The notes below the pieces were generated by a model. It had not been told where the DNA came from, made no database searches, and was given only the letters and a program-made list of their open reading frames with translations. 64,000 nucleotides of DNA from Cohnella rhizosphaerae (GTDB lineage Bacteria > Bacillota > Bacilli > Paenibacillales > Paenibacillaceae): NCBI RefSeq assembly GCF_029525575.1, contig NZ_JAPDIA010000003.1, positions 736,214-800,213 of the forward strand, read 5' to 3'. The position numbers and the translations under genes were made by a program. Below, piece after piece: positions 18,155 through 53,397 of the stretch (positions are counted from its first letter, which is position 1; every line of letters starts with the position of its first letter).

Positions 18155-18960
18155 GCGTTGTTCCTAACCGGGAACAACGGGGCGCATCGCTTGAGCCGTG
18201 AGCCGGCGTTGTTCCTAACCGGGAACAACGGGGCGCATCGCGCGAGCCGAGAGCTGGCGTTGTTCCTAACCGGGAACAACGGGGCGCATCGCGCGAGCCG
18301 AGAGCTGGCGTTGTTCCTAACCAGGAACAACGGGGCGCATCGCGCGAGCCGAGAGCTGGCGTTGTTCCTAACCAAGAACAACGGGGCGCATCGCGCGAGT
18401 CGTGAGCCGGCGCTGTTCCTAACCGGGAACAACGGAGCGCATCGCGCGAGTCGTGAGCTGGCGTTGTTCCTAACCAGGAACAATGGGGCGCATCGCGCGA
18501 GTCGTGAGCCGGCGTTGTTCCTAACCGGGAACAACGGGGCGCATCGCGCGAGCCGAGAGCTGGCGTTGTTCCTAACCGGGAACAACGGGGTGCAGCGCCC
18601 GGGCCGAGAGCTGGCGTTGTTCCTAACCAGGAACAACGGGGCGCATCGCGCGAGTCGTGAGCTGGCGTTGTTCCTAACCAGGAACAACGGGGCGCATCGC
18701 GCGAGCCGATGGCTGGCGTTGTTCCTAACCGTGAACAACGTGGCGCATCGCTTGAGCCGAGAGCTGGCGTTGTTCCTAACCAGGAACAACGTGGCGCATC
18801 GCCCGGGCCGAGAGCTGGCGTTGTTCCTAACCAGGAACAACGGGGCGCATCGCCCGGGCCGAGAGCTGGCGTTGTTCCTAACCAGGAACAACGGGGCGCA
18901 TCGCGCGAGCCGAGAGCCGGCGTTGTTCCTGATCAGGACAAACGGGGCGATTATCACTTG
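18155..18960. repeat. 51-bp tandem array A, 15 full units plus one degenerate
   Basis: Units begin at 18155 and recur every 51 bp exactly (18206, 18257 ... 18869); a degraded copy starts at 18920. Each unit has an 8-bp perfect inverted repeat, GTTGTTCC and GGAACAAC, around a 6-nt centre (TAACCG or variants), then a GC-rich part with GGGGCGCATCGCGCGAG. Because 51 is a multiple of three and the unit lacks stops, long open frames exist on both strands; they are not credible genes. Units differ by scattered substitutions but not in length. The array lies between the MATE terminator and the convergent isomerase gene. Confidence 0.95.
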
Positions 18961-19018
18961 TAGCCAGCTGCAGGTTGCGCCAAGTCAGGAGCATGTGCGC
19001 TGCGCCGCCCATGGTTTA

Positions 19019-19108
19019 AACGCGTCAGCCCGCGCCACCGCGTCAGCTCGCGCTCACCGCGTCAGCCCGCGCCACCGCATCAGCTCGCGCTCACCGCGTC
19101 AGCCACCG
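19019..19108. repeat. Short GC-rich tandem repeat at the isomerase 3' end
   Basis: CGCGTCAGCCCGCGCCAC and CGCGTCAGCTCGCGCTCAC alternate with a period of about 37 bp, a little over two periods in all, running into the stop region of the minus-strand isomerase gene. Confidence 0.7.
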
Positions 19109-19941
19109 CTTAATCCTCGGCGTGCCGTCTCGCGTCCCTCGCGCACGAAGCGCGCCGCGGCTTCCATCTGCGCCGCCGCGACGGCCTCCAGCGTGACGAA
19201 GCCGTGGGGCTTCTGCGCTTCAAGCTTCTCCCAGAAGCGGCCATAGTGCAGCTGGCCCAGCCCCGCGGCCGTCTCTTGGACGCCGCCGTCTGCGACGCGC
19301 ACCAGATCCTTGGCATGGGCGCTGACGATACGCGTGCCCAGAAGCCGAAACGCTTCGTCGACGACCTGATCCTGGTCGTCCAGCGTGCGGCCGTCGAGCA
19401 AATTGCACGGATCGAGGACGACGCCGACGCACGACGAAGGGAACCGTTCGATCGCGGCCGCCAGCGTCTCGGGCGTGTCGATCAAGTGCCCCTGGGCCGC
19501 CTCCAGTCCGATGACGGCCCCCCATCGGTCGGCTTCATCGACGAGCTCCTCAAGCGCGCGGTCGAGCAGCGCCGCGTGCTGCGCAAGGCGGCCGGGGTCC
19601 TGGGGCACGCCGACCTCGGTCGCCACGATCGGCGCGCCGAAATGCCGCGCGTGACGCAGATGTTCCTTGAACCGATCGACGTTATAGCGAAAGTTGTCCT
19701 CGTCTAGATCGATCAGGCTGGCGTAGCACCCGAGCACCGCGATCCGGACGCCTCGGTCCGCGAACGCGCCGCCGATCTCGCTCGCGAGTCCCGGGCTGAG
19801 CTTGCCGAGGGAAAAGTCGATGCCGGCAATGGCCTTGGACAGCGCCAGCTGCACGTACGAAAACCGATGCTCGGCCACCTTGTCGGCCAGTTGCGCGTAG
19901 GGCAGCGTACCGAGCAAATGCGCCAAAATGCCAACGGTCAT
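19099..19941 (-). CDS. Sugar phosphate isomerase/epimerase (xylose-isomerase-like TIM barrel)
   Basis: 280 residues of the AP-endonuclease-2-like TIM-barrel family. Visible metal/substrate features include ATEVGVPQD (Glu near residue 108), VIGLEAAQGHL (Glu near 150), VLDPCNLLD (Asp near 183), SAHAKDL (His near 215) and FVTLEAV (Glu near 255), the typical ring of acidic and His ligands. The substrate may be an inositol, ketose or related sugar and cannot be fixed. The gene is monocistronic and convergent with the MATE gene across array A. The C-terminal Arg-rich tail overlaps the short GC-rich repeat. Confidence 0.82.
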   Translation of the reverse strand: MTVGILAHLLGTLPYAQLADKVAEHRFSYVQLALSKAIAGIDFSLGKLSPGLASEIGGAFADRGVRIAVLGCYASLIDLDEDNFRYNVDRFKEHLRHARHFGAPIVATEVGVPQDPGRLAQHAALLDRALEELVDEADRWGAVIGLEAAQGHLIDTPETLAAAIERFPSSCVGVVLDPCNLLDGRTLDDQDQVVDEAFRLLGTRIVSAHAKDLVRVADGGVQETAAGLGQLHYGRFWEKLEAQKPHGFVTLEAVAAAQMEAAARFVREGRETARRGLSGG

Positions 19942-19995
19942 GGAATGCTCCTTTCGTGCGCGTACGATCGCGCTCGCCGTTTATGGCGTTCGTCT

Positions 19996-20112
19996 GATTT
20001 CGACTGTTTGACTATTCGAAGATTGACTGTTACTATCCGTCTCGACTGTGCGACTGTGCGACTGTGCGACTGTGCGACTGTTCAATGCTCGACTATTCGA
20101 CTATTCGACGCC
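19996..20112. repeat. Short-period CGACTGT/CGACTAT repeat
   Basis: A 9-bp unit GACTGTGCG occurs four times at about 20045-20080, flanked on both sides by degenerate TCGACTRTTYG copies. It sits between the divergently oriented isomerase and thioesterase genes, in front of both. Confidence 0.8.
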
Positions 20113-20269
20113 GGAGCGCGCCTTCCTTCATCCCTCGCTCTTCCTTCCGCACGCTTCCTCCCGCACTGTCCCCCCGCACCCTTCCGACCGCTCCCGGGGC
20201 ATAAGGTCCGCCAGGCTGGGGACAATGAGCCAAGCAGACCATTTACGGGATAAAGGGAGGCGAGCCGAG

Positions 20270-20782
20270 TTGGAAAAAAAGTTCGTTAAAGAGACCCGCT
20301 GCGTCAAAACCTCCCGCGTATTCCCGACCGACGTTAACAATCACGAGACGCTGTTCGGCGGCAGGCTGATGTCCCACATCGACGACATCGCGTCGATCTC
20401 CGCGTCCAAGCTGTGCAGGGTCACCGCTGTCACGGCTTCGACCGATTCGGTGGACTTTTTGCTCCCGATCCGGCAGACGGACTCGGTATCGCTCGAGGCC
20501 TTCGTATCGTGGACGGGCAAACGTTCGATGGAGGTGTTCGTCAAAGTGATCCGCGAGGATCTCCGAACCGGAGAGCGCCGGATCGCGGCGACTTCGTTTC
20601 TCACCTTCGTCGGGCTCGGCGACGACAATAAGCCTGTCTACGTGCCGCAGGTCATTCCCGAGACGGACGAGGAGAAGAAGCTGTTCGAGACCGCGGTGCA
20701 CCGCAAGGAGATGCGCGCCATCCGGCGGGAACAAAGCAAGGCGTTCGCGGATTTTCTGCTGGCGAAATACCCTTGGGAGTAA
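20270..20782 (+). CDS. Acyl-CoA thioesterase (hotdog fold, YkhA-like)
   Basis: TTG 20270 is preferred because AAAGGGAGG sits 9 bp upstream, giving 170 residues; ATG 20225 is possible. The core RVFPTDVNNHETLFGGRLMSHIDDIASISASKLC is the signature of the YciA/YkhA/BACH hotdog thioesterases, with the catalytic Asp in PTDVNNHxTLFGG. The later part, VDFLLPIRQTDSVSLEAFVSWTGKRSMEVFVKV, is also typical. It hydrolyses medium- or long-chain acyl-CoAs in the cytoplasm. It is a single gene ended by a strong terminator. Confidence 0.88.
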   Translation: MEKKFVKETRCVKTSRVFPTDVNNHETLFGGRLMSHIDDIASISASKLCRVTAVTASTDSVDFLLPIRQTDSVSLEAFVSWTGKRSMEVFVKVIREDLRTGERRIAATSFLTFVGLGDDNKPVYVPQVIPETDEEKKLFETAVHRKEMRAIRREQSKAFADFLLAKYPWE

Positions 20783-20789
20783 CGCGCGC

Positions 20790-20813
20790 GCCGATTCCGG
20801 CGCTTTTTTTGTT
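20790..20813 (+). terminator. Terminator after the thioesterase gene
   Basis: GCGCCG-ATTC-CGGCGC stem followed by seven T. Confidence 0.9.
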
Positions 20814-20834
20814 ATTTCGGGTCACAAAGACCCC

Positions 20835-20863
20835 TTGACATTCTTTAATATTGTCATTATGAT
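20835..20863 (+). promoter_or_regulatory. Strong sigma-A promoter of the NAD/ADP-ribose operon
   Basis: Consensus TTGACA (20835-20840), 17-bp spacer, TATGAT (20858-20863), 36 bp upstream of the first start codon. Confidence 0.85.
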
Positions 20864-20867
20864 AATA
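20849..20867. promoter_or_regulatory. Palindromic operator covering the -10
   Basis: TATTGTCATTATGATAATA is a 19-bp near-perfect palindrome (one mismatched pair besides the centre) over the -10 box, placed for repression. The operon encodes an NrtR-type regulator, the natural candidate to bind here, but the site also loosely resembles metal-regulator boxes. Confidence 0.6.
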
Positions 20868-20898
20868 TAAAAATGAGATATAAAGCGAGGCGATCCCG

Positions 20899-21304
20899 AT
20901 GGACTACTATCTGGAGGATGATCATGTCGTGTCCCGGCTCGTGGCGGAGTGGCGCAAGTACGGCCGGCTCGTCGTCGCGTACGACTTCGACAACACCGTG
21001 TTCGATTACCATCGCGCGGGCCTCTCGTTCGACGACGTGCCGCGGTTGCTCAGGGAATGCCGGGCGCTGGGCGCCTACCTGATCGTCTTTACCGCCTGCG
21101 CAGCGCAGCAATATCCGGCAATCCAAGATTACCTGACGGACAACGGCATTCCGTTCGACGCCATCAACGAAGATCCGCCGTTCGTGCCTTCCGCGGGCGG
21201 CAGGAAGATTTATTTTAACGTACTGCTCGACGACCGGGCGGGACTCGGCTCGGCTTACCTGTGCCTGCAGTCGGCCCTGGACATCATGAAGCGGGGGAGC
21301 GTGA
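20899..21304 (+). CDS. Small HAD-like hydrolase, first gene of NAD operon; one frameshift
   Basis: 134 residues once one G is removed from G5 (21293-21297), which creates a TGA at 21302-21304 just before the next start. VVAYDFDNTVFDYH (residues about 25-38) is the DxDxT motif of HAD phosphatases, LIVFTACAAQQY supplies motif II (Thr), and FNVLLDDRAGL the C-terminal Asp pair. Small HAD proteins of this type occur beside NAD-salvage genes. Dephosphorylation of a nucleotide or sugar phosphate is likely, with unknown substrate. Without the correction the frame runs into the PRPP-synthetase-like gene, a false fusion. Confidence 0.75.
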
Positions 21305-21309
21305 ATGAC

Positions 21310-22140
21310 ATGATTCGGTTAAACGGACAGACGCTGGACTTCGAGACGTATCCAAACGGGGGAGACGCGGGTGAATGGGGAATGGATCCTTGCGCTGGCC
21401 CGCGAGACGGACGGCAATCGGGTCGCCTTCAAGTACGAGACGGACGCCGACCTGATCAAGCTGATGTTCGTAAAAAACTATCTGGACGAACGCGGTCTCG
21501 GGCAACGGACGACGCTGGACATCTATTACATGCCGTACAGCCGGATGGACCGGACGGAAGGTGCGTCGGTCTTTACGCTAAGGTACGCGGCGCGAATGAT
21601 TAACGCCATGAACTTCGCGCGCGTGACCGTCGTCGAGCCACATTCGGACGTCACCCCCGCGCTGCTCGACCGCAGCGAAGCGGTGTACCCGACGCTTGAA
21701 CTGCTGAGCCGGGTGACGGCGGAGACGGGATTCGATCCGGCGGCGGATTACCTGTTCTTCCCGGACGCGGGGGCGCAGAAGCGGTACGGCCAGGTGGACG
21801 GCTTCAGGCAACTGGTCGGACACAAGGGAAAGGGACTTCCGCACGGGGCGCATTCAGAAGCTGGACGTCGCCGGGAGCGTCGATCGAACGGGTTTCAAAG
21901 CGATCATTATCGACGATCTTTGCTCGTACGGCGGCACGTTCCTGCTGAGCGCGGAGCGGCTTCGGGAGCTGGGCGCTTCGCGGATCTACCTGCTCGTGAC
22001 CCATTGCGAGAACGCGATCCGCCAAGGCAAGCTCCCCCGCTTCGGGATTGATCGAACGCGTCTATACGACGGACACGATCCTTGACGGTCCAAGCACGGA
22101 ATTCATCCAAATTTATCCGATCGGAGGCATGCTGCCATGA
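21310..22140 (+). CDS. Ribose-phosphate pyrophosphokinase-like protein; three frameshifts
   Basis: 275 residues after removing single bases from G5 (21358-21362), a G run near 21826-21836 and C5 (22034-22038). The repaired start MIRLNGQTLDFETYPNGETR matches short PRPP-synthetase-like proteins found next to nicotinamide phosphoribosyltransferase genes. The C-terminal phosphoribosyltransferase-fold motif FKAIIIDDLCSYGGTF is the PRPP-binding DDxxxxGGT-type loop. It is shorter than housekeeping Prs (about 315 residues) and divergent, so the acceptor (ribose-5-phosphate or a larger ADP-ribose-type substrate) is open. ATGA overlap with the NAMPT gene strongly suggests that it supplies that enzyme. 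Confidence 0.78.
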
Positions 22141-23642
22141 CCGCGACGAACACGAACAACTACGTTTACCCGGCTACGCTATTGTGCGACTTCTACAAGG
22201 TGAGCCACAAAAATCAATACCCGCAAGGCACGGAGCGCGTCTACTCGACCTGGACGGCGCGCACGAGCCGGATCGCCGAGATCGACAGCATCGTAGCTTT
22301 CGGCTTCCAGGCTTTTATCAAGGAATACTTGATCGATTACTTCAATTTACACTTCTTCGGCCGGACAAAAGCGGAGGTGGCGGACGAGTACAAGCGCGTC
22401 ATCCGATATGCGCTCGGCACGGCGGATCCCGATGCCGCCCACATCGAAGCGCTGCACGATCTCGGCTACCTGCCGATCAAGATTAAGGCCGTTAAGGAAG
22501 GCAGCCTCGTGCCGGTCAAGGTGCCGATGCTCACGATCGAGAACACGCAGCCCGCGTTTTTCTGGCTCACGAACTACCTGGAGACGCTCATGTCGTGCCA
22601 GCTGTGGGGGCCTGCCACGAGCGCGAAGCTCGCCTTCGAATACCGGAAGCTGCTCGAGCACTTCGCGCTGAAGACGAACGGAGACGCTTCGGGCGTGCCT
22701 TTCCAGGGACACGATTTCTCGATGCGGGGCATGGGCTCGCTGGAGGCGGCCAAGGCGAGCGGCGCGGGGCACCTGCTCTCGTTTACCGGTACGGATACGA
22801 TTCCTGCGATTTTGTATCTGGAGGACCACTACGGCGCCGATATGGAAAAGGAGCTCGTCGGCACCTCGATCCCGGCGACCGAGCATAGCGTCATGTGCGC
22901 GCACGGACGGGACGAAGCCGCTTCGTACCGCTATCTGATCAAGGACGTGTACCCGAGCGGCTTCGTATCGATCGTGTCGGATACTTGGGATCTGTGGACC
23001 GTCCTCGACGTCGTCATCCGCGGGCTGAAGGACGATATTTTGAGCAGGGACGGCAAGGTCGTCATTCGGCCGGACAGCGGCGATCCGGTCAAGATCATCT
23101 GCGGCGACCCCGACGCGGAGGAGCCGCTGGCGCGGCGCGGCGTCATCGAGATTCTGTGGGACATCTTCGGCGGCACGACGACCGACTGCGGCTACAAGCA
23201 GCTCGACAGCCACATCGGCGCGATCTACGGGGACGCGATCACGATCGCGCGCTGCCGGGAGATTTGCGAGCGGCTCGCGGCCAAGGGCTTCGCGTCGACC
23301 AACATGGTGTTCGGCATCGGGTCGTTCACGTACCAGTACAATACGCGCGACACATTCGGCTACGCGCTCAAGTCGACGTACGCGGTCGTGGACGGCGAGG
23401 AACGCAAAATTTACAAAGACCCGAAGACGGACGCGGGCAAGGTCAAAAAGTCGCAAACGGGGCTCGTTCGCGTCGTCCCGCAGGACGGTACGATGATCTG
23501 TGTTGATAATCTGAACAAGGAAGAATACGATCGATACAGCGGGACCGATCTCTTGGAGGACGTGTTCGTCGACGGGCGCCTCGTGCGCGCGCACACGCTC
23601 GGCGACATCAGAGCCAGGCTCCTCGGGAACCTGCAGGACTAA
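22137..23642 (+). CDS. nadV: Nicotinamide phosphoribosyltransferase (NAMPT/NadV)
   Basis: An intact 501-residue protein, full length for bacterial NAMPT. Conserved segments include LLCDFYKVSHKNQYPQGTE, FHDFSMRG-type GHDFSMRGMGS (near residue 200), IPATEHSVMCAHG with the auto-phosphorylated His at about 250, VVIRPDSGDP near 310 and FGIGSFTYQYNTRDTFGYALK near 400. It joins nicotinamide and PRPP to form NMN. The neighbours suggest a dedicated salvage or NAD-rebuilding unit; no nicotinamidase or NMN adenylyltransferase is in the window, so NMN must be adenylylated by an enzyme elsewhere, unless the route differs. Confidence 0.93.
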   Translation: MTATNTNNYVYPATLLCDFYKVSHKNQYPQGTERVYSTWTARTSRIAEIDSIVAFGFQAFIKEYLIDYFNLHFFGRTKAEVADEYKRVIRYALGTADPDAAHIEALHDLGYLPIKIKAVKEGSLVPVKVPMLTIENTQPAFFWLTNYLETLMSCQLWGPATSAKLAFEYRKLLEHFALKTNGDASGVPFQGHDFSMRGMGSLEAAKASGAGHLLSFTGTDTIPAILYLEDHYGADMEKELVGTSIPATEHSVMCAHGRDEAASYRYLIKDVYPSGFVSIVSDTWDLWTVLDVVIRGLKDDILSRDGKVVIRPDSGDPVKIICGDPDAEEPLARRGVIEILWDIFGGTTTDCGYKQLDSHIGAIYGDAITIARCREICERLAAKGFASTNMVFGIGSFTYQYNTRDTFGYALKSTYAVVDGEERKIYKDPKTDAGKVKKSQTGLVRVVPQDGTMICVDNLNKEEYDRYSGTDLLEDVFVDGRLVRAHTLGDIRARLLGNLQD

Positions 23643-23663
23643 GCGACAGGGGTCATATTCCAA

Positions 23664-24431
23664 ATGAACGATAACCATGCAGGATCATACTCCGCCGCGG
23701 GATTCCGCACGCCCGACGGCGCGCCGACGGACATCGTCGTGTTCACGATCACCAAGACCGAGCGGACGGGGGCCAAGAAGGCGCTGCCGCTACGAAGGCT
23801 GGAAGTGATGCTGATCAAGCGCAAGCAGTGGCCGTGCGAAGGCATGTGGGCGCTGCCGGGCGGATTTACCCGCGAGGCGGAGACTGTCGAGGCGTGCGCG
23901 CGGCGGGAGCTGATGGAGGAGACGGGCGTTGCGGACGTGCACCTTGCGTACTTCAACGTCTACAGCGAGCCGGGTCGCGACCCGCGCGGCTGGATGATCT
24001 CCCACGCTTTCTTCGCGCTCGTCGAGGAGCGGTACGTGGCAAGCCGCAGAACGTCGGACGAAGCGTCGGACGTGTCGCTGTGGCCGATCGAGGAGGCGCT
24101 TAAGATGGAGCTGGCGTTCGACCACCGGACCATTTTGCGGGATGCCGTAGCGCGGATACGCCGGGAGATGCTGACGACGACGATCGCCAGGGAATTTTTG
24201 CCCGAGACGTTCACGATTGCGGAGCTGTACCAGGTAATCACGGCCGTCGTGCCGTCGTTCGAGGAAAAAAACTTTATCCGCAAGGTGACTTCTACGCAGA
24301 GCCGCAGAGGCATTCTGGAGGAAGTGCGCGACGCGGAAGGCCGGCCGGCGATGTCCAACCGGTACTCGCAGCGGCCGGCGCAGCTGTACCGGTTCACCGA
24401 ATATGCGCCGGAGCTGTCGATTTACGGCTAA
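23664..24431 (+). CDS. nrtR: NrtR-type Nudix regulator (ADP-ribose sensing)
   Basis: 255 residues. The N-terminal Nudix domain carries a complete Nudix box at residues 67-89 (GGFTREAETVEACARR, then ELMEETG), so the hydrolytic residues are present; in several NrtR repressors the box is degenerate. The C-terminal part after about residue 165 (FTIAELYQVITAVV ... NFIRKVTSTQSRRGILEEV) matches the winged-helix domain of NrtR. NrtR proteins repress NAD-metabolism genes and respond to ADP-ribose. The position inside the operon, with a palindrome over its promoter, suggests autoregulation. Confidence 0.87.
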   Translation: MNDNHAGSYSAAGFRTPDGAPTDIVVFTITKTERTGAKKALPLRRLEVMLIKRKQWPCEGMWALPGGFTREAETVEACARRELMEETGVADVHLAYFNVYSEPGRDPRGWMISHAFFALVEERYVASRRTSDEASDVSLWPIEEALKMELAFDHRTILRDAVARIRREMLTTTIAREFLPETFTIAELYQVITAVVPSFEEKNFIRKVTSTQSRRGILEEVRDAEGRPAMSNRYSQRPAQLYRFTEYAPELSIYG

Positions 24432-24520
24432 GATGAACGCGCTTCGGATTCGCGGATCATGGCGTCCTGCGGACGGAATCGGGATGAAGCTGGGATAGAG
24501 ACGGAGCGGGAGGCGACAAA

Positions 24521-25418
24521 ATGAAACTGGCTGAACGGATACGAGGCGGCTTGTACGGCGTGGCCGTCGGGGATGCGCTGGGCGGCACGACGGAGTTCAT
24601 GTCTCCGCGGGAGATCGCGGCCCGTCACGGTTATCTGACGGAGATCGTCGGGGGGCGGCGTATGGCGCCTCGAACCCGGCGAGGTGACCGACGACACCAT
24701 GATGACGCTGTGCGTCGCGGACGGCATTCTGGCGTCACCGGACGATCCGATCCGGGCGATCGGGGAGCGCTTCTTGCAATGGTATGCGTCCAAGCCAAAG
24801 GATATCGGGAACATCATCCGAACCGTGCTCGCTACGTACGAAGGCAATTGGTTCGAGGCCGCGCTGCTCGCGGATTTGAATCTCGGGCAAAGCGCGGGCA
24901 ACGGCTCGCTGATGCGATGCCTGCCCGTGGCGCTGTGCTATCCGGATTGGTCCGACGTGTCGCGCGTGTCGCGGATGCAGTCGAAGATGACGCATTACGA
25001 CGAGCTGTGCAACGAGGCGTGCGAGATATATAACCGGATCGCGTTCGCCATGCTGAACGCAGACGCCGGACTTCGCGAAGCGATCGCAGCCGCCGTCGCG
25101 GGCACCGCTTATGAAGAGAGGCTCGCCAGGGAGCCGAACTGCGAGTCCAGCGGCTATGTCGTGCACACGTTCCGCTGGGTGCTGCATCTGCTGCTGACGT
25201 CGGATTCCTTTGAAGAAGTGGTGCAGCGGGCCGCGAATCAGGGCGGGGACTCCGATACGATCGGCGCGATCGCAGGCGGGCTGGCCGGCGTGCATTGGGG
25301 CTTCGCCGGCATCCCCGAGCGCTATTCCTCGCGCATCCTGGTCAAAGAGCGGCTGGATCGGACCGTCGCGGCGACGCTTGCGTTGAGATCGAAGGACGGC
25401 TTGGCGCCGCAGCGCTAA
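24521..25418 (+). CDS. ADP-ribosylglycohydrolase (DraG/ARH family); one frameshift
   Basis: 298 residues after removing one G from G6 (24650-24655), which restores TEIVGGGVWRLEPGEVTDDTMMTL. Family metal-binding motifs are GVAVGDALGGTTEF (residues about 12-25), EVTDDTMM (about 55) and NQGGDSDTIGAIAGGLAG (about 238-255), so the binuclear Mg site looks complete. ARH enzymes remove ADP-ribose from proteins or nucleic acids, or act on related O-acetyl-ADP-ribose compounds. The stop overlaps the convergent ArsR gene by 4 bp. Last gene of the operon. Confidence 0.87.
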
Positions 25419-26329: not shown

Positions 26330-26350
26330 GTCGTTCCCTCCGTCTCTATG

Positions 26351-26394
26351 ATTAACCGTGGAGTTAATTATACTACATAAGAGTTGACAATCAA
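26351..26394 (-). promoter_or_regulatory. ArsR gene promoter with overlapping inverted repeat
   Basis: On the minus strand TTGATT, 16-bp spacer, TATAAT (plus-strand positions 26389-26394 and 26367-26372). The perfect inverted repeat ATTAAC-N6-GTTAAT at 26351-26368 overlaps the -10, placed for autoregulation. Confidence 0.6.
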
Positions 26395-28880: not shown

Positions 28881-28888
28881 TCAGATCC

Positions 28889-28922: not shown

Positions 28923-29281
28923 GACGATTCAGCACATAAAATCATGGGAAAATCAAGGAACCACACGCTAACCTTAAGAAAAGAAAGACGAGAAGGCAGG
29001 CGGGTGGTTCGAATCAGAACGGCGGGCAGCCGCTGAAGGCAGTCAGGCAAAAAATATCGGACCCAGGAGACGTTATATCTTAAAAACCTGTCCAAATGGC
29101 GATGGTTTCGGACTGGAGGGCCGTTATTCATCCGGATCACGACAAAAAAAAGGCCGGCAAACCCGAAATAGCGGCGCCTGGGTCCGCGAGCAGACCGCCA
29201 ATCGCGACTTGAATAAAAATAAGGGCTCCTCAGTCCGTCAGCCACGTGCGAATATACAAACACAAAGGCCGCCGGGGCTCT

Positions 29282-29455
29282 AAGTATGCACGTAGATCAA
29301 CAGTTGGCGGGTCAGCGAGGAATAACCATCCCAAGTATGCACGGATCAACAGTTGGCGGGCCAGCGAGGAGTAACCATTCCAAGTATGCGTGGATCAACA
29401 GTTAGCGTGCGAAGAGGCGACGACCGGCGGTCGAAGTATGCCATGTAGTTGACGT
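29282..29455. repeat. Tandem array D, about 3.5 units of 49-52 bp
   Basis: AAGTATGC recurs at 29282, 29333, 29382 and 29434 (spacings 51, 49 and 52). The first three units share GATCAACAGTTGGCGGG-type and CAGCGAGGARTAACCATYCC segments; the fourth is degenerate. No protein-coding sense. Confidence 0.85.
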
Positions 29456-29467
29456 GCAATGAGGCGG

Positions 29468-29496: not shown

Positions 29497-29893
29497 GGAA
29501 TGTCAGAACGTAAAAATCAGCACATTTTTTAAACTGGAAGCTGCGTTTGGAGGAGGGGGATCAAGCGCAATTACGCTAATCTCGATACAGTGGGGCTAAG
29601 GGCCGAGAGCTTAGAGTTGAGAGCAGGGAGCGATAAGTGCTCAAAAGCAGTTAATAAGCGCGGTGATCCGGCTGCGGAGGAAATAATGGTTAAAACGCAT
29701 TTATTTTGGTTTAAAACAACGATCGGATAGGCGGCGAGCGGAAGGACGACATACCTGAGAGGGCCGGTAGAGTGATACGCGTTGCTGTCTGTTATCGACG
29801 ATCGATCGCCATTTTCGAAGAATTCGGGACAAGCAAGCGCTTACCCAGGATGAAAAATCACTCATTTTTAAATTTTTCCTTTTTTAATGTCTG

Positions 29894-37545: not shown

Positions 37546-37850
37546 TACATGGGACTGCCGAGACGCAGCGACGCTCGGAGCGAGTGGATTTGTTCCTACA
37601 TGGGACTGCCGAGACGCAGCGACGCCCGGCCGAGCGGATTTGTTCCTACATGGGACTGCCGAGACGCAGCGACGTCCGGAGCGAGCGGATTTGTTCCTAC
37701 ATGGGACTGCCGAGACGCAGCGACGCTTGGCCCGAGCGGATTTGTTCCTACATGGGACGACCGAGACGCAGCGACGCCCGGCCGAGCGGATTTGTTCCTA
37801 CATGGGACGACCGGGACGCAGCGACGCCCGGCCCGAGCGGATTTTTTCTG
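37546..37850. repeat. 50-51-bp tandem array B, six units
   Basis: TACATGGGA recurs at 37546, 37597, 37647, 37698, 37749 and 37799 (spacings 51, 50, 51, 51, 50). The unit runs TTTGTTCCTACATGGGAC, GAGACGCAGCGACG and a variable GC-rich segment ending GAGCGGA. The core TTGTTCCTANNNGGGA is shared with array A. It lies between a terminator and the chemotaxis promoter. Confidence 0.92.
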
Positions 37851-45831: not shown

Positions 45832-45868
45832 GGACCGCTCCGGCGGGGAAGGAAAGGAGAGAGGGGCC

Positions 45869-46945
45869 ATGGCTGCGATCCGGGTGCTGGTGGTCGACGA
45901 TTCGATCTTTATGCGCAAGCTGATCAAGCGCCTGCTCGAGGAAGACCCGGAGTTGTCCGTGCCGGGGGTGGCGACGAACGGCGCGGAAGCGGTGCGCATG
46001 ACCCAGGAGCTCGTGCCGGACGTCGTCACGATGGACGTCGAGATGCCCGGCATGAACGGTCTGGACGCGGTATCCGCCATTATGAGGTCGCGTCCGGTGC
46101 CCATCGTCATGCTCAGCTCGCAGACGCAGGAGGGCGCGGCCGCGACGATCGACGCGCTGCGGCGGGGCGCCGTAGACTTCGTCGGCAAGCCTTCGGGCTC
46201 CACCTCATTCGACTTGTACAAAGTGAGGACGGAGCTGGTCGCAAAAGTCAAAGCGGCGTCCAAAACGCGAAAGACGGCGCTTAAGCTTCCGTCGGCGGCG
46301 GTGAATCCCGCCCCCAGAGGCGCAGCCGCCGGGGCGGTGCGCGAGGATGCGCCCGGCTTCAGGTCGTTCGGTCAGATCGTCGCGATCGGCACTTCGACCG
46401 GGGGGCCTCGCGCGCTGGATGCCGTTCTAACGGCTTTGCCGCCCGATTTCCGGTGCCCGGTGCTTGTCGTGCAGCACATGCCGCCTCGCTTCACCAAGTC
46501 GCTCGCCGAGCGCTTGAACGCCATTTGCGAGGTGCGCGTATCCGAAGCGGAGGATGGGGAGTCTTTGCGAGGAGGCCGGGTCTACATCGCGCCGGGCGAC
46601 AAGCATCTGACGATCGCGGAGAAGGGCGGCGCGTATGTCGTGAAGCTCACGGAGGAGCCGCTGCGCAGCGGCCACCGTCCTTCCGTGGACGTGCTGTTCG
46701 AATCGGTAGCCCGCCTGTCCAGGTTGAAGCGTCATTACGTCATCATGACGGGCATGGGGCAGGATGGCGCGAAGGGCATGCTGCTGGCCAAGGAGCTCGG
46801 CGCGGCTTCGACGATCGCGGAGTCGCAGGAGACCTGCGTCGTGTACGGCATGCCCCGGTCCGCGGTCGAGCTAGGCTGCGTGGAGCATATCGTGCCGCTC
46901 GGGCGCATCGCCGACAAGATCGTTCAAGTCACAGGGAAGGACTGA
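45869..46945 (+). CDS. cheB: CheB receptor methylesterase
   Basis: 358 residues, intact; start after GGAAAGGAGAGAGG. Receiver domain with D10/D11, phospho-acceptor D56 (VVTMDVEMPG), linker, and methylesterase domain with catalytic Ser near 174 (GTSTGGPRAL), His near 203 (VVQHMPPRF) and Asp near 298 (MTGMGQDGAKGM). Demethylates or deamidates receptor glutamates. Last gene of the operon. Confidence 0.94.
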   Translation: MAAIRVLVVDDSIFMRKLIKRLLEEDPELSVPGVATNGAEAVRMTQELVPDVVTMDVEMPGMNGLDAVSAIMRSRPVPIVMLSSQTQEGAAATIDALRRGAVDFVGKPSGSTSFDLYKVRTELVAKVKAASKTRKTALKLPSAAVNPAPRGAAAGAVREDAPGFRSFGQIVAIGTSTGGPRALDAVLTALPPDFRCPVLVVQHMPPRFTKSLAERLNAICEVRVSEAEDGESLRGGRVYIAPGDKHLTIAEKGGAYVVKLTEEPLRSGHRPSVDVLFESVARLSRLKRHYVIMTGMGQDGAKGMLLAKELGAASTIAESQETCVVYGMPRSAVELGCVEHIVPLGRIADKIVQVTGKD

Positions 46946-46979
46946 GCGCGGCGGATGCCGACATGGAAGACTCGGGGAA

Positions 46980-47026
46980 CAGGGCAGTGCGCGTCATGAA
47001 AAATGGCGCTGCACCGCCCTTTTTTC
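46980..47026 (+). terminator. Probable terminator after cheB
   Basis: An imperfect GC-rich hairpin (GGGCAGTGCGC ... GGCGCTGCACCGCCC) followed by six T. Confidence 0.55.
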
Positions 47027-47280
47027 ATGGCATGCAGGGCTCGTCCGAGGCTGGCCGACGGCATCGAGCGTTTGCGTTTTGAATCGTGGAAAAAAAAAGG
47101 ATTACGATTTTTGTCGACTTTAAGCAAATGTTTAGCGCTACGGACTAAAATAATGTTCCCGGGATATCGAAATATAAAGAATAGTGTCGAAATTTGTTGT
47201 AAAAGAATTTGGTCCATATTACCAATGAGAATTTTACCATCCTGCTTTAGAATGTAGAAATATGGCGAGCGAGGAAGGGA

Positions 47281-49293
47281 ATGCTTGTGAAAAAATCGCC
47301 TATCGTCTCTCATCGAGCGTCGGCCGCCCATCGGAATCGGTCCTACAGAAAAACGCCTCCGGCTGCGCAGGATATGGAACGAGTCAAAATGCGCCGCATC
47401 ATGGACTCGTTAGGCGTGGCGATGTGTTCGTACGAGGCAGAGACGGGGCGCTGCGATTGTTTGTCCGATTCCGTGCTGTCGGTGACGGGATACGCCAAGG
47501 AACAGCTCCAAGACATGCGCGCGTGGGAACGAATCGTGCATCCGGACGATTTTGCCGTTTTTCTGGCGCTGGACATGACGGGCGCCGGGGCGAACGACCT
47601 GGAGTGCCGCATCTATCGTTCGGACGGAGAAATGCGTTGGCTTAACGTGTGCGTATCCTTTCCGACGGACGCAACGGGCCGCAAATTGATTAACGCGATC
47701 ATTCGCGACGTGACCGGGGCCAAACTAGCGGGACGCGGTTCTTCGGCTGAACCGCCCCGTGCCGGCGCGAACGCGAGGGAAGCGCATGCCGTCGGAGGGA
47801 TAGACCTTCGATTGATCGACCAGAGCCCGGACGCCATCATTTTGCATCGCGATTATCGGATCGAATACGCCAATCCTGCGGCGATGGCGCTGTTCGGCGC
47901 CAAGGGCGAACTGACGGAGGCCAGGCTTCTCGGGATGATTCATCCCGAAGGTTTGGACGAGGCGATCTCCCGTCTGTCGCAGGTATATCGCTCCGCCAGC
48001 ACGAGCGCGCCGGCGGAGCAGCGGCTCGTGCGGATGGACGGTTCGTTCGTGGACGTCGAGGTTGTCACCGGTCCCGTGTCTTATAAGGGAAGCGTCGTTG
48101 CGATCTCGATCCTGCGCGACATTACCGAACTCAAGCAGGCGGAGCGTCAACGGCTGGAGACCGAGCGTCTGGTCCACGAGACCGGGGAGCTTTACAAGCG
48201 ATTGCAAAATAGCCTGGACGTTTTCTCGAGCGCCCTGTTCGGTATGGTTAAAGTGTCCGAGATGGAAGGGCGCCTCATCGAAGTCGTGCGGGACGTGTTG
48301 ACGACCGAGGCTGTCACCCTGGTGGAGGTTCGCCCCGACCGCCGCGGCGTCCTGCGCGCGGGCGCGCGGATTCCCCGCTGGCTTGCGGGGGCGCCCCGGG
48401 AGTGGAGCGCCGACTTGCCGCTGTGCCGCGTCGTCGATCGGTCGGAGGGCTACCTTATCCGGATCGGGGATATCCGCAGATCGGTCTACGTGCTGTGCGT
48501 GGGAGAGCGTCCCGAGCCGCTTCGGCTCGAGCAGGTCCGCATCTGGCTCGAGACGATCTGCCGTTATGTCAGCGTATTGTACGACAACTTCCTGGTCATC
48601 GAGGATTTGACCCGGGAGGTGGAGTCGGCATCGACGCAGGCGGCCGTACCGTCCAGACTGCTTCGGCTGCTGTTCCAGCTGAACGAGCACGAGCGCAAGC
48701 GGTTCGCCCAGGATCTGCACGACTCGGTGCTGCAGGAGCAGATCGTCTGGTATCGCAAGGCGGAGCAGATGATCGCGGAGCCCGCGCTGGATCCGGACAC
48801 GCGGGACAAGCTTCAGTCGATCGCGGAGGGCATGCTCGACGTCATGTATCAGATACGCATGACGTGCATCGATCTGCGTCCGCCCATGCTGAAGGAAGCC
48901 GGTCTGTCTTCTTCGCTGGCGTCGCTGTTCGAGCTGACGCAGCTGCGCGCCGATTATGCGATCGACTACCAGCTCGGCGATATCGGGCAAGCGTTGTGCG
49001 AGGATCAGATGCTCGGCATTTACCGCGTCGTGCAAGAGCTGCTGGCGAACGCGTCCAAGCACTCGCGGGCGACGCGGGTGAAGATCTCGCTCGCGGCGTC
49101 GGCAGGCTTGATTCATTTGCACTACGAGGACAACGGCGTTGGCATGGACATCGAGAAAGCGGAGAGCGCGTTCGCGAGCATGGGCGTATACGGCATGAAG
49201 GAGCGCGTGCACAGCATGCGCGGCCAGATCGTCTTCTGCTCGGCCCCGAACGACGGGCTCTCCATCAGCATCCGCATTCCGGCTGCCGTCTAG
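47281..49293 (+). CDS. Cytoplasmic PAS-containing NarL-type sensor histidine kinase
   Basis: 670 residues, intact, without membrane segments. PAS domain 1 spans about residues 38-148 (ETGRCDCLSDSVLSVTGYAKEQL ... ERIVHPDD) and PAS 2 about 173-285 (IDQSPDAIILHRDYRIEYANPAAMALFG). A GAF-like region follows, then HisKA_3 with phospho-His480 in RFAQDLHDSVLQEQ and a DLRPPML motif, then HATPase_c (ELLANASKHSRATRVKI; YEDNGVGMD; GVYGMKERV). It is a DegS/ComP-like kinase that should phosphorylate the regulator encoded 27 bp downstream. Signal unknown, probably intracellular or redox. Confidence 0.9.
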   Translation: MLVKKSPIVSHRASAAHRNRSYRKTPPAAQDMERVKMRRIMDSLGVAMCSYEAETGRCDCLSDSVLSVTGYAKEQLQDMRAWERIVHPDDFAVFLALDMTGAGANDLECRIYRSDGEMRWLNVCVSFPTDATGRKLINAIIRDVTGAKLAGRGSSAEPPRAGANAREAHAVGGIDLRLIDQSPDAIILHRDYRIEYANPAAMALFGAKGELTEARLLGMIHPEGLDEAISRLSQVYRSASTSAPAEQRLVRMDGSFVDVEVVTGPVSYKGSVVAISILRDITELKQAERQRLETERLVHETGELYKRLQNSLDVFSSALFGMVKVSEMEGRLIEVVRDVLTTEAVTLVEVRPDRRGVLRAGARIPRWLAGAPREWSADLPLCRVVDRSEGYLIRIGDIRRSVYVLCVGERPEPLRLEQVRIWLETICRYVSVLYDNFLVIEDLTREVESASTQAAVPSRLLRLLFQLNEHERKRFAQDLHDSVLQEQIVWYRKAEQMIAEPALDPDTRDKLQSIAEGMLDVMYQIRMTCIDLRPPMLKEAGLSSSLASLFELTQLRADYAIDYQLGDIGQALCEDQMLGIYRVVQELLANASKHSRATRVKISLAASAGLIHLHYEDNGVGMDIEKAESAFASMGVYGMKERVHSMRGQIVFCSAPNDGLSISIRIPAAV

Positions 49294-49320
49294 ACCGGGC
49301 TGCGACGGGAGGGCATTCAT

Positions 49321-50028
49321 ATGATAGAAGTGCTGACGGTAGACGACCATCCCTCGGTCATGGAAGGCACGAAGCTGCTGCTCGAGCAGGAAGGGGACAT
49401 CCGGGTGCGCTTCGCGAATACGGCCGCCGCAGCGATCGATCTGCTGCAGCGGCTCCGGTTCGACGTGATCCTCGTCGATCTGCAGATGCCCGATATGAAC
49501 GGGCTCGAGCTGTCGAAGCGCATGCTCGGCGTCCGGCCGGACGCGACGATCCTCATCTACACGGGTTTCGATTTCAAAAATCAATTTAACGTGATGGTCG
49601 AGTCGGGACTTTCCGGCTTCCTGCCCAAGACGGTGAACCGGGAGCAGCTCGTGACTGCCGTTCGTTGCGCGGCGCGCGGAGAGGCCGTACTCCCGCTCGA
49701 ACTGCTCAGGCAGCTGAGACGCGCGAGCGAACCGCGGCCCGAGCCCCGCGTCGACCAGACGTGCGCGTCCGTGTCCGATAGGGATCGGCAGATTCTGACG
49801 GAGATCGCCAGGGGCAGGAGCAACAAAGAAATCGCGCAAGCGCTGCTGATCAGCCAGCGGTCGCTCGAATACGCGCTGACGGATCTTTTTCACAAGCTGA
49901 AGGTCAAATCGAGAGTCGAGGCCGTCATCAAGGCGGGCCAGCTTGGCATCGTGGACGAGGGAGAGCGCGGCGCGCAGCGACGGGCCGATCATTCTTTCGT
50001 CGCGCAAACCGGCCTGGATGCGATATAA
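49321..50028 (+). CDS. NarL/ComA-type response regulator
   Basis: 235 residues. Receiver domain with D8/D9 and phospho-acceptor D53 (ILVDLQMPD), the ThrGly switch in LIYTGFD and Lys in LPKTV; LuxR-type helix-turn-helix at about 148-205 (VSDRDRQILTEIARGRSNKEIAQALLISQRSLEYALTDLFHKLKVKSR). The C-terminal tail is longer than usual. Partner of the kinase just upstream; target genes unknown. Confidence 0.92.
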   Translation: MIEVLTVDDHPSVMEGTKLLLEQEGDIRVRFANTAAAAIDLLQRLRFDVILVDLQMPDMNGLELSKRMLGVRPDATILIYTGFDFKNQFNVMVESGLSGFLPKTVNREQLVTAVRCAARGEAVLPLELLRQLRRASEPRPEPRVDQTCASVSDRDRQILTEIARGRSNKEIAQALLISQRSLEYALTDLFHKLKVKSRVEAVIKAGQLGIVDEGERGAQRRADHSFVAQTGLDAI

Positions 50029-50044
50029 AGATCGCCTCGCTCAA

Positions 50045-50069
50045 ATCCCCGCTTGCAATCGCGGGGGAT
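50045..50069 (+). terminator. Hairpin after the response regulator gene
   Basis: ATCCCCGC-TTGCAATC-GCGGGG stem without a clear T tract; weak terminator or mRNA end stabiliser. Confidence 0.45.
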
Positions 50070-50070
50070 G

Positions 50071-50115
50071 TTGCTGTATATTTATCTTAAATTAAAGATA
50101 AATAATTTAAAGATA
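50071..50115 (+). promoter_or_regulatory. AT-rich promoter/operator region of the dioxygenase gene
   Basis: ATCTTAAATTAAAGAT (50084-50099) has matching ends ATCTT/AAGAT, and TTAAAGATA occurs twice (50092 and 50107). This is the only AT-rich stretch near this gene. In Bacillus, related dioxygenase genes are repressed by the MarR-type MhqR; such a regulator may bind here, but no such gene is in the window. Confidence 0.45.
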
Positions 50116-50150
50116 TAAGGAATCGCCGACAGGCGAAGGAGACGATAGCG

Positions 50151-51101
50151 ATGACCCAGAAAACGGCAGGCATTCACCACATTACCGCATTCGTTCGCAA
50201 CGCGCAGGAAAACGTCGACTTTTACGCAGGCGTACTCGGGCTTAGACTCGTGAAGAAGACGGTTAACTTCGACGGCCCGGAGGTCTATCACCTTTATTTC
50301 GGCAATGAGAGCGGGAGTCCCGGCACGGCGATTACGTTTTTTCCGTTCGAGCACGGCCGCAAGGGGCTGATCGGCGGCGGCCAGGTCGGTTGGTCGACGT
50401 TCGCGGTGCCGGTCGGCGCGCTCGCCTTCTGGGAAGAACGCCTGACGAAGCTTGGGATCGCCTTCGAACGGACGACGCGGTTCGGAGAGACCTTCCTGCG
50501 ATTCCGCGACCGCGACGAGCTGCAGCTCGAACTGGTCGAGCGCGAGCGGGGCGCGCCGAGCAAGTGGTCGTTCGGCGGGGTGCCGGCGGATAAGGCGATC
50601 AAGGGACTTGGCGGCGCCGTCCTGTTCAGCCTTGCGCCCGACAAGACGATGACGGCGCTGCAGGAGCTGCTCGGGCTCGAAAAGGTCGGCTCGGAAGGCG
50701 GCCTCGCCCGGTTTCGCGCGTACGGGGAGCTGGGCAATATCGTCGAGGTGCGGGAGGAGGCGGTGCCGGGCGGTCACGGCGGCGCAGGCACGGTGCACCA
50801 TATCGCCTGGCGCGCGAAGAACGACGAGGATCACCGCGTTTGGCGCGAGCGCGCGCTCGTGCACGGCTTTCAGCCGACGCCCTTTACCGATCGACAGTAC
50901 TTCAACGCTATTTACTTCCGCGAGAGCGGGGGCATTCTGTTCGAGATCGCGACCGATCCGCCAGGCTTCGCCCGCGACGAGCCGATCGAGGGACTCGGCG
51001 AGCGGCTGATGCTGCCCGAATGGTTCGAGCCAAGACGCGCCGAGCTTGCAGCCGTGCTGCCGCCGATCGAGGTTCGCGTGCTGGATGCCGATCGGGCATA
51101 A
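50151..51101 (+). CDS. Ring-cleaving dioxygenase, MhqO/MhqA-like (VOC family)
   Basis: 316 residues made of two vicinal-oxygen-chelate units (residues about 6-140 and 150-285). Metal-ligand motifs: AGIHHITAFV (His), EDRDELQLEL-type RDRDELQLELVE (Glu), TVHHIAWRA (His) and GGILFEIATDPPGF (Glu). Close in layout to the Bacillus MhqO/MhqE proteins involved in resistance to quinones and hydroquinones. AAGGAG precedes the ATG. Probably in an operon with the flavin reductase 75 bp downstream. Confidence 0.88.
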   Translation: MTQKTAGIHHITAFVRNAQENVDFYAGVLGLRLVKKTVNFDGPEVYHLYFGNESGSPGTAITFFPFEHGRKGLIGGGQVGWSTFAVPVGALAFWEERLTKLGIAFERTTRFGETFLRFRDRDELQLELVERERGAPSKWSFGGVPADKAIKGLGGAVLFSLAPDKTMTALQELLGLEKVGSEGGLARFRAYGELGNIVEVREEAVPGGHGGAGTVHHIAWRAKNDEDHRVWRERALVHGFQPTPFTDRQYFNAIYFRESGGILFEIATDPPGFARDEPIEGLGERLMLPEWFEPRRAELAAVLPPIEVRVLDADRA

Positions 51102-51176
51102 TGATGGATGCCAATGCTACGTAAGGGATGCCGCGCAGGCCGCGCATGACGGCCGCGGCGAAGGGAGAGAACAAGC

Positions 51177-51788
51177 ATGATCGCGATCGATCCGTCCGAA
51201 CAAACCGAACGGGACAACTACAAGCTTATGATCGGAAGCATCGTGCCGCGCCCGATCGCGCTAATGACGACGCTGTCGGCAGACGGGGTCGTGAACGCGG
51301 CGCCGTTCAGCTACTTCAACATCGTGACCGCGAATCCGCCGATGGTGTCGATATCGGTCCAGCGCAAGGGCGGGGTTCAAAAGGACAGCGCGCGCAACGC
51401 CGTGGCGACCGGCAGCTTCGTCGTTCACGTCACCGACGAGTCGAACGTGCGCGCGGCGAACCTGGCGGCTGCGAATCTGCCGCCGGAGGCGAGCGAGCTG
51501 GACTTTGCCGGCTTCACCGCCGTGCCGAGCAGCGCCGTGCCCGTGCCGGGGCTCGCCGAGGCGAAGATCCGGATGGAGTGCGTGCTTGAGCGCGCCTATC
51601 CGTTGGGCGGAACGGACGACGCGCCGGCCTGCGACCTGCTGATCGGACGCGTCGTCCGCTTCCACGTCGCCGACGAGCTGCTCAGCGACGGCAGAATCGA
51701 CGCGCAGCGGCTCCAGCCGGTCAGCCGGCTGGCCGGCAACGCGTACGCGAAGCTGGGCGAGGCGTTCTCGCTGGATCGGCCGGAGTAA
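51177..51788 (+). CDS. Flavin reductase-like (FMN-binding split-barrel) protein
   Basis: 203 residues. GSIVPRPIALMTTLSADGVVNAAPFSYFNIVTANPPMVSISVQ is the signature of the flavin reductase-like domain family, with the FMN-binding NxAPFSYF motif near residue 40, and VVHVTDESNVRAANLAAA near 82. It may reduce flavin or quinone substrates together with the neighbouring dioxygenase. GGGAGAG precedes the start. Confidence 0.88.
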   Translation: MIAIDPSEQTERDNYKLMIGSIVPRPIALMTTLSADGVVNAAPFSYFNIVTANPPMVSISVQRKGGVQKDSARNAVATGSFVVHVTDESNVRAANLAAANLPPEASELDFAGFTAVPSSAVPVPGLAEAKIRMECVLERAYPLGGTDDAPACDLLIGRVVRFHVADELLSDGRIDAQRLQPVSRLAGNAYAKLGEAFSLDRPE

Positions 51789-51825
51789 GGGAGCGAGCAG
51801 GCGAGATTGCCGCGGCTAGGTGAGC

Positions 51826-53397
51826 GAAGTGCTGCCGAGGGAAAGCACATGCGGGAGTAGGCGCGGCTGAGGATGCGAAGTGCTGTCGAGGGAAAGCACA
51901 TGCGGGAGTAGGCGCGGCTGAGGATGCGAAGTGCTGCCGAGGGAGAGCACACGCGGGCGTAGGCGCGGCCGAGGATGCGAAGTGCTGTCGATGGAAAGCA
52001 CATGCGGGTGTAGGCGCGACTGAGGACGCGAAGTGCTGTCGAGGGAAAGCACATGCGGGTGTAGGTGCGGCGGAGGATGCGAAGTGCTGTCGAGGGAAAG
52101 CACATGCGGGTGTAGGTGCGGGTGAGGATGCGAAGTGCTGTCGAGGGAAAGCACATGCGGGTGTAGGTGCGGGTGAGGATGCGAAGTGCTGTCGAGGGAA
52201 AGCACATGCGTGCGTAGGCGCGGCTGAGGATGCGAAGTGCTGCCGAGGGAAAGCACATGCGGGCGTAGGCGCGGGTGAGGATGCGAAGTGCTGCCGAGGG
52301 AAAGCACATGCGGGAGTAAGCGCGGCCGAGGATGCGAAGTGCTGTCGAGGGAAAGCACATGCGTGCGTAGGCGCGGCGGAGGACGCGAAGTGCTGTCGAT
52401 GGAAAGCACATGCGGGCATTGGCGCGGCTGAGGATGCGAAGTGCTGTCGATGGAAAGCACATGCGGGTGTAGGCGCGGCTGAGGATGCGAAGTGCTGTCG
52501 AGGGAAAGCACATGCGGGAGTAGGCGCGGCTGAGGATGCGAAGTGCTGTCGATGGAAAGCACATTCGGGAGTAGGCGCGGCGGAGGACGCGAAGTGCTGT
52601 CGATGGAAAGCACATGCGGGTGTAGGCGCGGCTGAGGATGCGAAGTGCTGCCGAGGAAAGCACATGCGGGAGTAGGCGCGGCTGAGGATGCGAAGTGCTG
52701 TCGATGGAAAGCACATGCGGGCGTAGGCGCGGCTGAGGATGCGAAGTGCTGTCGAGGGAAAGCACATGCGTGCGTAGGCGCGGCCGAGGATGCGAAGTGC
52801 TGCCGAGGGAAAGCACATGCGGGAGTAGGCGCGGCTGAGGATGCGAAGTGCTGTCGAGGGAAAGCACATGCGGGTGTAGGCGTGGCTGAGGATGCGAAGT
52901 GCTGCCGAGGGAAAGCACATGCGGGCGTAGGCGCGGCGGAGGATGCGAAGTGCTGTCGAGGGAAAGCACATGCGGGCGTAGGCGCGGCTGAGGATGCGAA
53001 GTGCTGTCGAGGGAAAGCACATGCGGGAGTAGGCGCGGCTGAGGATGCGAAGTGCTGTCGATGGAAAGCACATGCGGGAGTAGGCGCGGCGGAGGATGCG
53101 AAGTGCTGTCGATGGAAAGCACATGCGGGAGTAGGCGCGGCTGAGGATGCGAAGTGCTGCCGATGGAAAGCACATGCGGGTGTAGGCGCGGCTGAGGATG
53201 CGAAGTGCTGTCGAGGGAAAGCACACGCGGGCGTAGGCGCGGCGGAGGATGCGAAGTGCTGTCGAGGGAAAGCACATGCGGGCGTAGGCGCGGCCGAGGA
53301 TGCGAAGTGCTGTCGAGGGAAAGCACATGCGGGCATTGGCGCGGCTGAGGATGCGAAATGCTGCCGATGGAAAGCACATGCGGGCATCTATGCGTGA
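51826..53397. repeat. 51-bp tandem array C, 31 units
   Basis: GAAGTGCTG (last copy GAAATGCTG) starts at 51826 and recurs every 51 bp to 53355. One unit near 52650 lacks a single G, making the total 30 x 51 minus 1. Each unit has the short inverted repeat GTGCT / AGCAC around TCGAGGGA-like sequence, then ATGCGGG, GTAGGCGCGGC and GAGGATGC. Variation is confined to a few positions, mostly T/C or G/A exchanges, implying recent homogenisation. Open frames across it on both strands are by-products of the 17-codon period. It begins 38 bp after the flavin reductase stop and ends 100 bp before the DUF4917 gene. Confidence 0.97.

Follow-up and report, generated by a model that had tools for sequence, protein, structure and literature searches.

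Tandem arrays with periods near whole helical turns in a Cohnella genome as candidate rows of protein-binding sites

Iterons and phased operator arrays, known from plasmid origins and cooperative repressors, are direct repeats of protein sites placed at whole helical turns. Repetitive extragenic palindromic (REP) sequences, with REP doublets forming hairpins (REPINs) and bacterial interspersed mosaic elements (BIMEs), are short, many-copy extragenic palindromes lying mostly behind genes and between convergent ones, and BIMEs have been linked to gyrase. Minisatellites, or variable number tandem repeats (VNTRs), are built of head-to-tail units with substitutions between copies, and clustered regularly interspaced short palindromic repeats (CRISPRs) of regular repeats whose core is partly palindromic. 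Likenesses to each of these are found in four tandem arrays (A, D, B and C) in a 64,000-nt stretch of Cohnella rhizosphaerae DNA (the window; C5:736214-800213, in an 8.50-Mb genome of nine contigs), for which binding by protein is putative. A sequence-only reading had described all four as having a period of ~51 bp, and Tandem Repeats Finder (TRF) run on the window recovered each of them. The analysis reported here places the four in a large population of arrays with unit lengths close to whole turns of the DNA helix, and we consider it about an even chance that they are helically phased sites for one or more dimeric DNA-binding proteins, amplified in Cohnella and architectural in role.

The population was surveyed with TRF in 2.42 Mb, 28% of the 8.5-Mb genome including the window. 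The sample consisted of 98 stretches of 20 kb taken every 84 kb, together with the ends of contigs, the stretches adjoining the window and a further two (L123 and L124) included for their motif match, with ~5 kb of overlap among stretches (L042/L015 and L049/L124). With coding and non-coding DNA divided by a crude, home-made hexamer gene model, 118 arrays with a period of at least 20 bp were non-coding and 65 were coding. After exclusion of a CRISPR locus, 94 non-coding arrays had periods of 36-130 bp, of which 71 fell at 49-54 bp and 63 at exactly 51 or 52 bp; none of the 65 coding arrays had a period of 49-54 bp. The 51-bp enrichment and the bias toward non-coding DNA expected by the sequence-only reading are therefore both seen in the sampled part of the genome. 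The systematic part alone (the 98 stretches, 1.96 Mb) gave 54 of 77 non-coding arrays at 49-54 bp, and extrapolation from the sample indicates roughly 230-250 such arrays in the whole genome. The excluded locus (L044:1422-3486) is a CRISPR-like array with the repeat GTCGCTCCCCGCGGGGGGAGCGTGGATTGAAATA. Other Cohnella genomes, sampled at 200 kb each, contained two arrays (51 and 52 bp; G013) and three arrays (50, 51 and 52 bp; G012), and JJ-181 contained two 51-bp arrays within 14.8 kb. No array with a period of at least 36 bp was found in 22 non-Cohnella loci (168 kb).

When sorted by shared core, the arrays formed at least ten sequence families, nine of which were anchored (Table 1); 22 arrays of the set lay outside these nine, and further families are visible. 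The loose anchor for F11 also picked up four non-F11 arrays of 51-53 bp. In F4 and F10 the period is constant while the spacers from different loci look unrelated. Since whole units of F1 and part of F2 are related from locus to locus, the arrays of these groups may have a common dispersed ancestor. A 38-bp array of 8.9 copies (L097:10975-11320) resembles F6 minus half its palindrome. In Tumebacillus avium a single F11 palindrome between A and T runs (L146:3869-3893) resembles a bidirectional terminator, from which the F11 core may have arisen.

Palindromic families outside the 51-bp class had periods of 62, 72-73, 83, 93-94 and 105 bp. Addition of 40-42, 51, 114 and 126 bp yields a ladder with a step of 10.4-10.6 bp, equal to one turn of B-DNA. 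Among the matches listed, F11 sites of this genome were spaced by 72-73, 83, 93-94, 104-105, 114 and 126 bp, the exceptions being one spacing of 58 bp and two doubled gaps (185 and 187 bp). The F11 spacings of Cohnella sp. OV330 and GbtcB17 were 72-73, 82-83 and 91.5-94 bp, with single exceptions of 50.5 and 53 bp involving mismatched sites. F10 sites were 62-63 bp apart at every locus among the matches listed, with one spacing of 56 bp, one of 99 bp and one doubled gap. The 27 arrays of F10-F12 from this genome and relatives, each represented by one mean, gave a best period of ~10.45 bp with R = 0.957, the arrays having been picked for palindromic-family membership and those of the same family not being independent. 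The class means alone gave p = 0.002, which became 0.0003 with the 51-bp class and 5e-5 with two in-array spacings added. A line through steps 4-12 had a slope of 10.60±0.05 and an intercept of -1.6, and the slope through the origin was 10.41. A slope of 11, the step of the A-form, fitted the ladder worse than 10.45-10.6, and the A-form step was rejected for this poorer fit.

Phased F4 sites with unrelated spacers, found outside Cohnella, are the strongest evidence for what appears to be selection on phase. Within the genus, at least 15 of 37 genomes contained F4, and within the order at least 20 of 392 did, at least 12 of the latter being non-Cohnella. The 12 non-Cohnella loci, two of which have a single site, held 40 sites with at most three mismatches as compared to 0.5 expected by shuffling. 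Their 27 neighbour spacings were 40, 42, 50-52, 62 and 72 bp with one of 111 bp, and R was 0.89 at 10.45 bp with a maximum of 0.91 at 10.2 bp and 0.85 at 11 bp. The nine distinct spacings outside 49-53 bp gave p = 0.002. Spacer identity was 48.1% versus 37.3% shuffled (32 pairs) when locus L225 was included and 38.8% versus 38.1% (17 pairs, six loci) when it was omitted. L225 holds a genuine 50-bp tandem repeat, and at L221 a two-copy 50-bp repeat lies near, outside the F4 cluster. Thus, L225 aside, the F4 spacing is retained at non-Cohnella loci without visible duplication. A common amplification mechanism, offered earlier as one reason for the equal periods, cannot alone account for such sites. 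Over 44 F4 sites, the arm position that varied most was paired in 26 where 22.9 would be expected, and 10 cases were A-C; at some flank and loop positions the excess was slightly greater. The pattern weakly favours half-sites that would be read separately over a hairpin.

A text search of the open literature for the F4 arm sequence returned only unrelated papers among the matches listed. A viral or plasmid origin was rejected, as the F1 and F4 cores were found in viral contigs in only 9 and 4 stretches, respectively, with one site each (both strands read for F4). An F10 pair was found in no viral contig, array B matched nothing in the plasmid collection, and the part of array C compared with the phage collection matched nothing there.

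Core-to-core spacing inside arrays equalled the array mode in 509 of 569 measurements, spacings of at least 1.7 times the mode having been excluded; 36 were one base shorter, 12 one base longer and 12 off by two or more. The 85-array set used for the spacing and position counts takes in low-copy arrays and one array (L041:2882) of period 54 that is truly an 18-bp repeat. In an F11 array (C4:197488-198569), homologous units with spacer insertions or deletions measured 93, 94, 104, 105, 114 and 126 bp. Spacers inside one array are near-identical copies, as in arrays A, B, C and others. The arms of the best palindrome were less variable than the spacer in 29 of 43 arrays with enough units (p = 0.004) and in 13 of 16 arrays with strong palindromes (0.031 versus 0.083, p = 0.0013), a test weakened by choosing the palindrome from the same consensus.

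The 85 arrays were located between tandem genes (45), between convergent genes (27), between divergent genes (3) and at sample edges (10). The 27 convergent versus 3 divergent positions among the 75 placed arrays indicate that promoter regions are avoided. The background of predicted intergenic regions of at least 100 bp was 694 tandem, 112 convergent and 155 divergent. Arrays of the asymmetric families F1, F2, F6, F7 and F8 in tandem context followed the upstream gene in 13 cases and opposed it in four, the loosely matched F3 (five following, seven opposing) being excluded from the count. A simple scan detected a terminator-like hairpin in 20 of 72 gaps between stop codon and array. At one sampled locus, two adjoining glycine riboswitch aptamers (L021:10520-10714) lie near three phased arrays.

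In the mechanism that we propose, each array would line up sequence-specific sites, often imperfectly palindromic, at spacings of whole helical turns, most commonly five (51-52 bp), also four or six to ten and occasionally 11 or 12. Such spacing would place consecutive sites on one face of the DNA, along which a putative dimeric protein for each family could contact its neighbours and coat the DNA behind genes. The role would be architectural or topological, as an insulator or supercoil buffer chiefly between convergent genes, the position of the arrays being the sole basis for this assignment. Rows in Cohnella would have been extended and homogenised by unequal recombination, with core and phase held by selection. 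A protein array is judged likeliest because the sites would share one face, the arms are conserved, the spacing tolerates about one base and the arrays lie behind genes. The earlier suggestion that unit length is constrained to about five helical turns is backed by the 51/52-bp peak, by the ladder and by the phased, unamplified clusters elsewhere. The structural or protein-binding role suggested with it is one that we, too, infer from the sequences, as we do the protein, its same-face cooperation and its architectural role. A broader proposal, which we hold tentatively and with the balance somewhat against it, is that several unrelated, mostly palindromic families, every one of them bound by a separate dimeric protein, may share one ladder and form bacterial nucleoprotein arrays of a class not encountered in our searches, chromatin-like patches behind genes at hundreds of Cohnella loci. 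If true, such filament- or chromatin-like patches would set DNA topology at gene ends.

Several observations weigh against phased protein sites. The many unrelated cores would require many proteins. Many 51-bp arrays have weak palindromes only, and arms were steadier than spacers in just the 29 of 43 arrays given above. The 22 non-coding arrays outside 49-54 bp with at least 2.5 copies gave R = 0.53 at 10.45 bp and a best period of 11.0 bp (R = 0.62). The low R of 0.53 results from inclusion of arrays of 38 (four), 43 (two), 45 (one) and 48 bp (one), and R was 0.66 at 10.45 bp for the same set at 3.5 or more copies (n = 16). The two 43-bp arrays come within 1.2 bp of a rung, whereas the other six (38, 45 and 48 bp) do not fit the ladder. 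The F6 derivative at L097:10975 has lost half its palindrome yet reached 8.9 copies. Spacings of 37, 56-58, 80-81, 91 and 99 bp were also seen, chiefly near array ends, and some F4 flank and loop positions pair somewhat above the expectation for independence.

The main rival explanation attributes the ladder to an enzyme rather than to selection. In PMC6265447, SbcCD is described as opening hairpins and cleaving both strands at ~10-bp intervals. Extruded hairpins cut in this way could be repaired with duplication of whole-turn lengths, consistent with the longer palindromes of F11 having longer periods than the shorter ones of F10 and F4. However, the phased non-Cohnella F4 sites with unrelated spacers are not duplication products, the length changes within an existing F11 array remain on the ladder and the broken-palindrome 38-bp array is still amplified well; we regard amplification biased by SbcCD as unlikely. 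Alternatively, selfish REP-like mobile palindromes could have settled behind genes, where they are least harmful, and stacked in tandem, the spacing being a by-product of the transposition complex. The palindromic, extragenic character of the arrays and their location in tandem and convergent gaps, seldom in divergent ones, are as given for REPs in PMC3733652, and related full units occur at many loci in F1 and part of F2. Yet a search of the genome (91.5% complete) for Y1_Tnp, the domain of REP-associated tyrosine transposases (RAYTs), gave no match while 5 of 14 control genomes were positive, and mobilisation by RAYT was rejected on this absence. Since REPs need RAYT, the identity of the arrays with REPs is doubted. 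Moreover, the copies are direct head-to-tail repeats, and the REP spacings of P. fluorescens given in PMC3116915 (71, 110 and 184 bp) are off the ladder. A REP-like origin seems improbable on these grounds.

A function in RNA, with arrays transcribed as 3' extensions that form repeated mRNA hairpins, would fit their location behind genes. It would also fit the dispersed element E1 beside array D, which was oriented with the upstream gene in 18 of 18 tandem cases and showed both-side changes in 4 of 25 predicted pairs, weak support for RNA folding. On the other hand, the 11-bp A-form step fits the ladder worse, the asymmetric families include four arrays opposing the upstream gene beside 13 following it (F3, with five and seven, again excluded), the F4 arm positions hardly covary and no known RNA family of Rfam was matched on the arrays in five sources; we think this explanation quite improbable. 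Ordinary, functionless minisatellites that inherited the 51-bp period from a few ancestral repeats would account for the full-length units common to some arrays and for the homogenisation of units within an array, as in any VNTR. They would not account for equal periods across families without common cores, for the constant periods of F4 and F10 despite spacers that look unrelated or for the recurrence of the ladder in other species and genera, and this reading is largely disfavoured, with very little probability left to it.

Helical phasing across many loci and several unrelated motifs points strongly, at the genomic level, to DNA sites that cooperate, and here it is legible from sequence alone. 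As phased protein sites, the arrays could offer a route to a new bacterial architectural protein, and they separate the multiplication of a repeat from the reason for retention of its unit length, which are usually confounded in minisatellites. No account of such Cohnella arrays or of helically quantised bacterial repeat periods was found among the matches listed in searches of an open-licence library.

Table 1. Arrays and dispersed elements of the window, with the core families to which arrays were assigned.
Feature	Position in window	Strand	Period, length or copies	Core or description
Array A	18141-18949	+	TRF: period 51, 15.9 copies	F2-like core GTTGTTCCTAACCAGGAACAAC
Array D	29282-29460	+	3 clear units and a degenerate fourth	F7 (AAGTATGCACGTAG...)
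Array B	37546-37848	+	TRF: period 51, 6.0 copies; unit 50-51 bp	F2 (GATTTGTTCCTACATGGGACT...)
Array C	51824-53385	-	TRF: period 51, 30.6 copies	F8 (GTGCTTTCCCTCGACAGCAC on - strand)
E1	29055-29276	+	~200 bp	dispersed element directly before array D
E2	29602-29717	+	~80-120 bp	second dispersed sequence, far side of array D; matches several sampled loci
F1				AAAAGTTACTCTACAG within ~31-bp core
F2				TTGTTCCTA; includes window arrays A and B
F3			mostly 52 bp	GATAAGTGC
F4			52 bp	palindrome TAGCGGAA-N5-TTCCGCTA
F6				anchored family
F7				anchored family (window array D)
F8				anchored family (window array C)
F10			62-63 bp	ATGCACA-N5-TGTGCAT
F11			72-105 bp	GAACCGCACA-N5-TGTGCGGTTC

All four window arrays are intergenic, as had been claimed, with respect to genes predicted by the hexamer model, several of the neighbours having Pfam matches. 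Mechanical long open reading frames run across arrays A and C, and 51 is divisible by 3. Array A is flanked by convergent genes, a MatE gene (+, ending at 17930) and an AP_endonuc_2 gene (19099-19941, -), and its core-to-core spacing was 51 bp in 15 of 15 cases. Short tandem repeats are also found near array A, at 20043-20081 (CGACTGTG, 4.9 copies) and 19021-19104 (a 37-bp unit, 2.3 copies). TRF delimited array D as 29282-29407 with a period of 49 bp and 2.5 copies. Its AAGTATG heads begin at 29282, 29333, 29382 and 29434, corresponding to spacings of 51, 49 and 52 bp, which makes the earlier estimate of about 3.5 units a reasonable one. At other sampled loci (L018, L057 and L058), F7 arrays have a period of 51 bp. 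Array B has full-length relatives at five sampled loci (L038, L047, L049, L060 and L097), and the core said to be common to arrays A and B was confirmed as TTGTTCCTA-NNN-GGGA. Array C has a Flavin_Reduct gene (51177-51788, +) on one side and a DUF4917 gene (53497-54543, +) on the other. Its core spacing was 51 bp in 29 of 30 cases and 50 bp in one, and relatives occur at two sampled loci (L061 and L083). The flavin reductase has a match in 26 of 37 genomes. The palindrome-like head that the sequence-only reading assigned to arrays A, B and C holds for A, where it is strong, is imperfect in C and is weak in B. A c-di-GMP-I riboswitch aptamer is present at 2460-2545 of the window.

The element E1 carries a 20-bp site (~CGGACTSRGGRGNCGYTATT) four times, as a forward pair and an inverted pair, each pair being spaced by 51 bp in the window copy. 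The sample contains 22 copies with at least 150 aligned bases, the window copy included; the distance within the forward pair was 50-52 bp in all 20 copies in which it could be measured, and the inverted pair was 51 bp apart in 21 of 22. Of 26 matches with a length of 90 bp or more, 18 were in tandem, 7 in convergent and 1 in edge positions. Of 60 genomes, five contained E1, all of the genus and one of them with a weak match, and a terminator-like hairpin is next in line at several copies. The element may be an RNA, a miniature inverted-repeat transposable element (MITE)-like element or a further cluster of phased sites. A 204-bp tandem array of 7.7 copies (L080:15258-16837) has a unit with sequence resembling E1 by eye.

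In comparison with known systems, the arrays share with REPs an extragenic position that avoids divergent gaps. They differ from REPs, REPINs and BIMEs in being long and direct head-to-tail, with many unrelated cores per genome and helical-ladder spacing. The inverted unit pairing of REPs and REPINs is absent from the arrays, the units of which are direct; inverted site pairs are present in E1. The near-identical spacers of the arrays set them apart from CRISPRs, in which spacers are unique, and no cas genes turned up beside the window arrays, no search having been aimed at them. Head-to-tail copies as in VNTRs characterise the arrays and not the non-Cohnella F4 clusters, and the arrays differ from minisatellites in a unit length gathered at 51-52 bp and the ladder rungs and set by core family. 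The integral-turn spacing of phased protein sites is found in the palindromic families, the six off-ladder non-coding arrays noted above departing from it. Relative to iterons and phased operators, the arrays are chromosomal, occur at an estimated 230-250 loci rather than at a single origin or promoter, and have far longer spacings.

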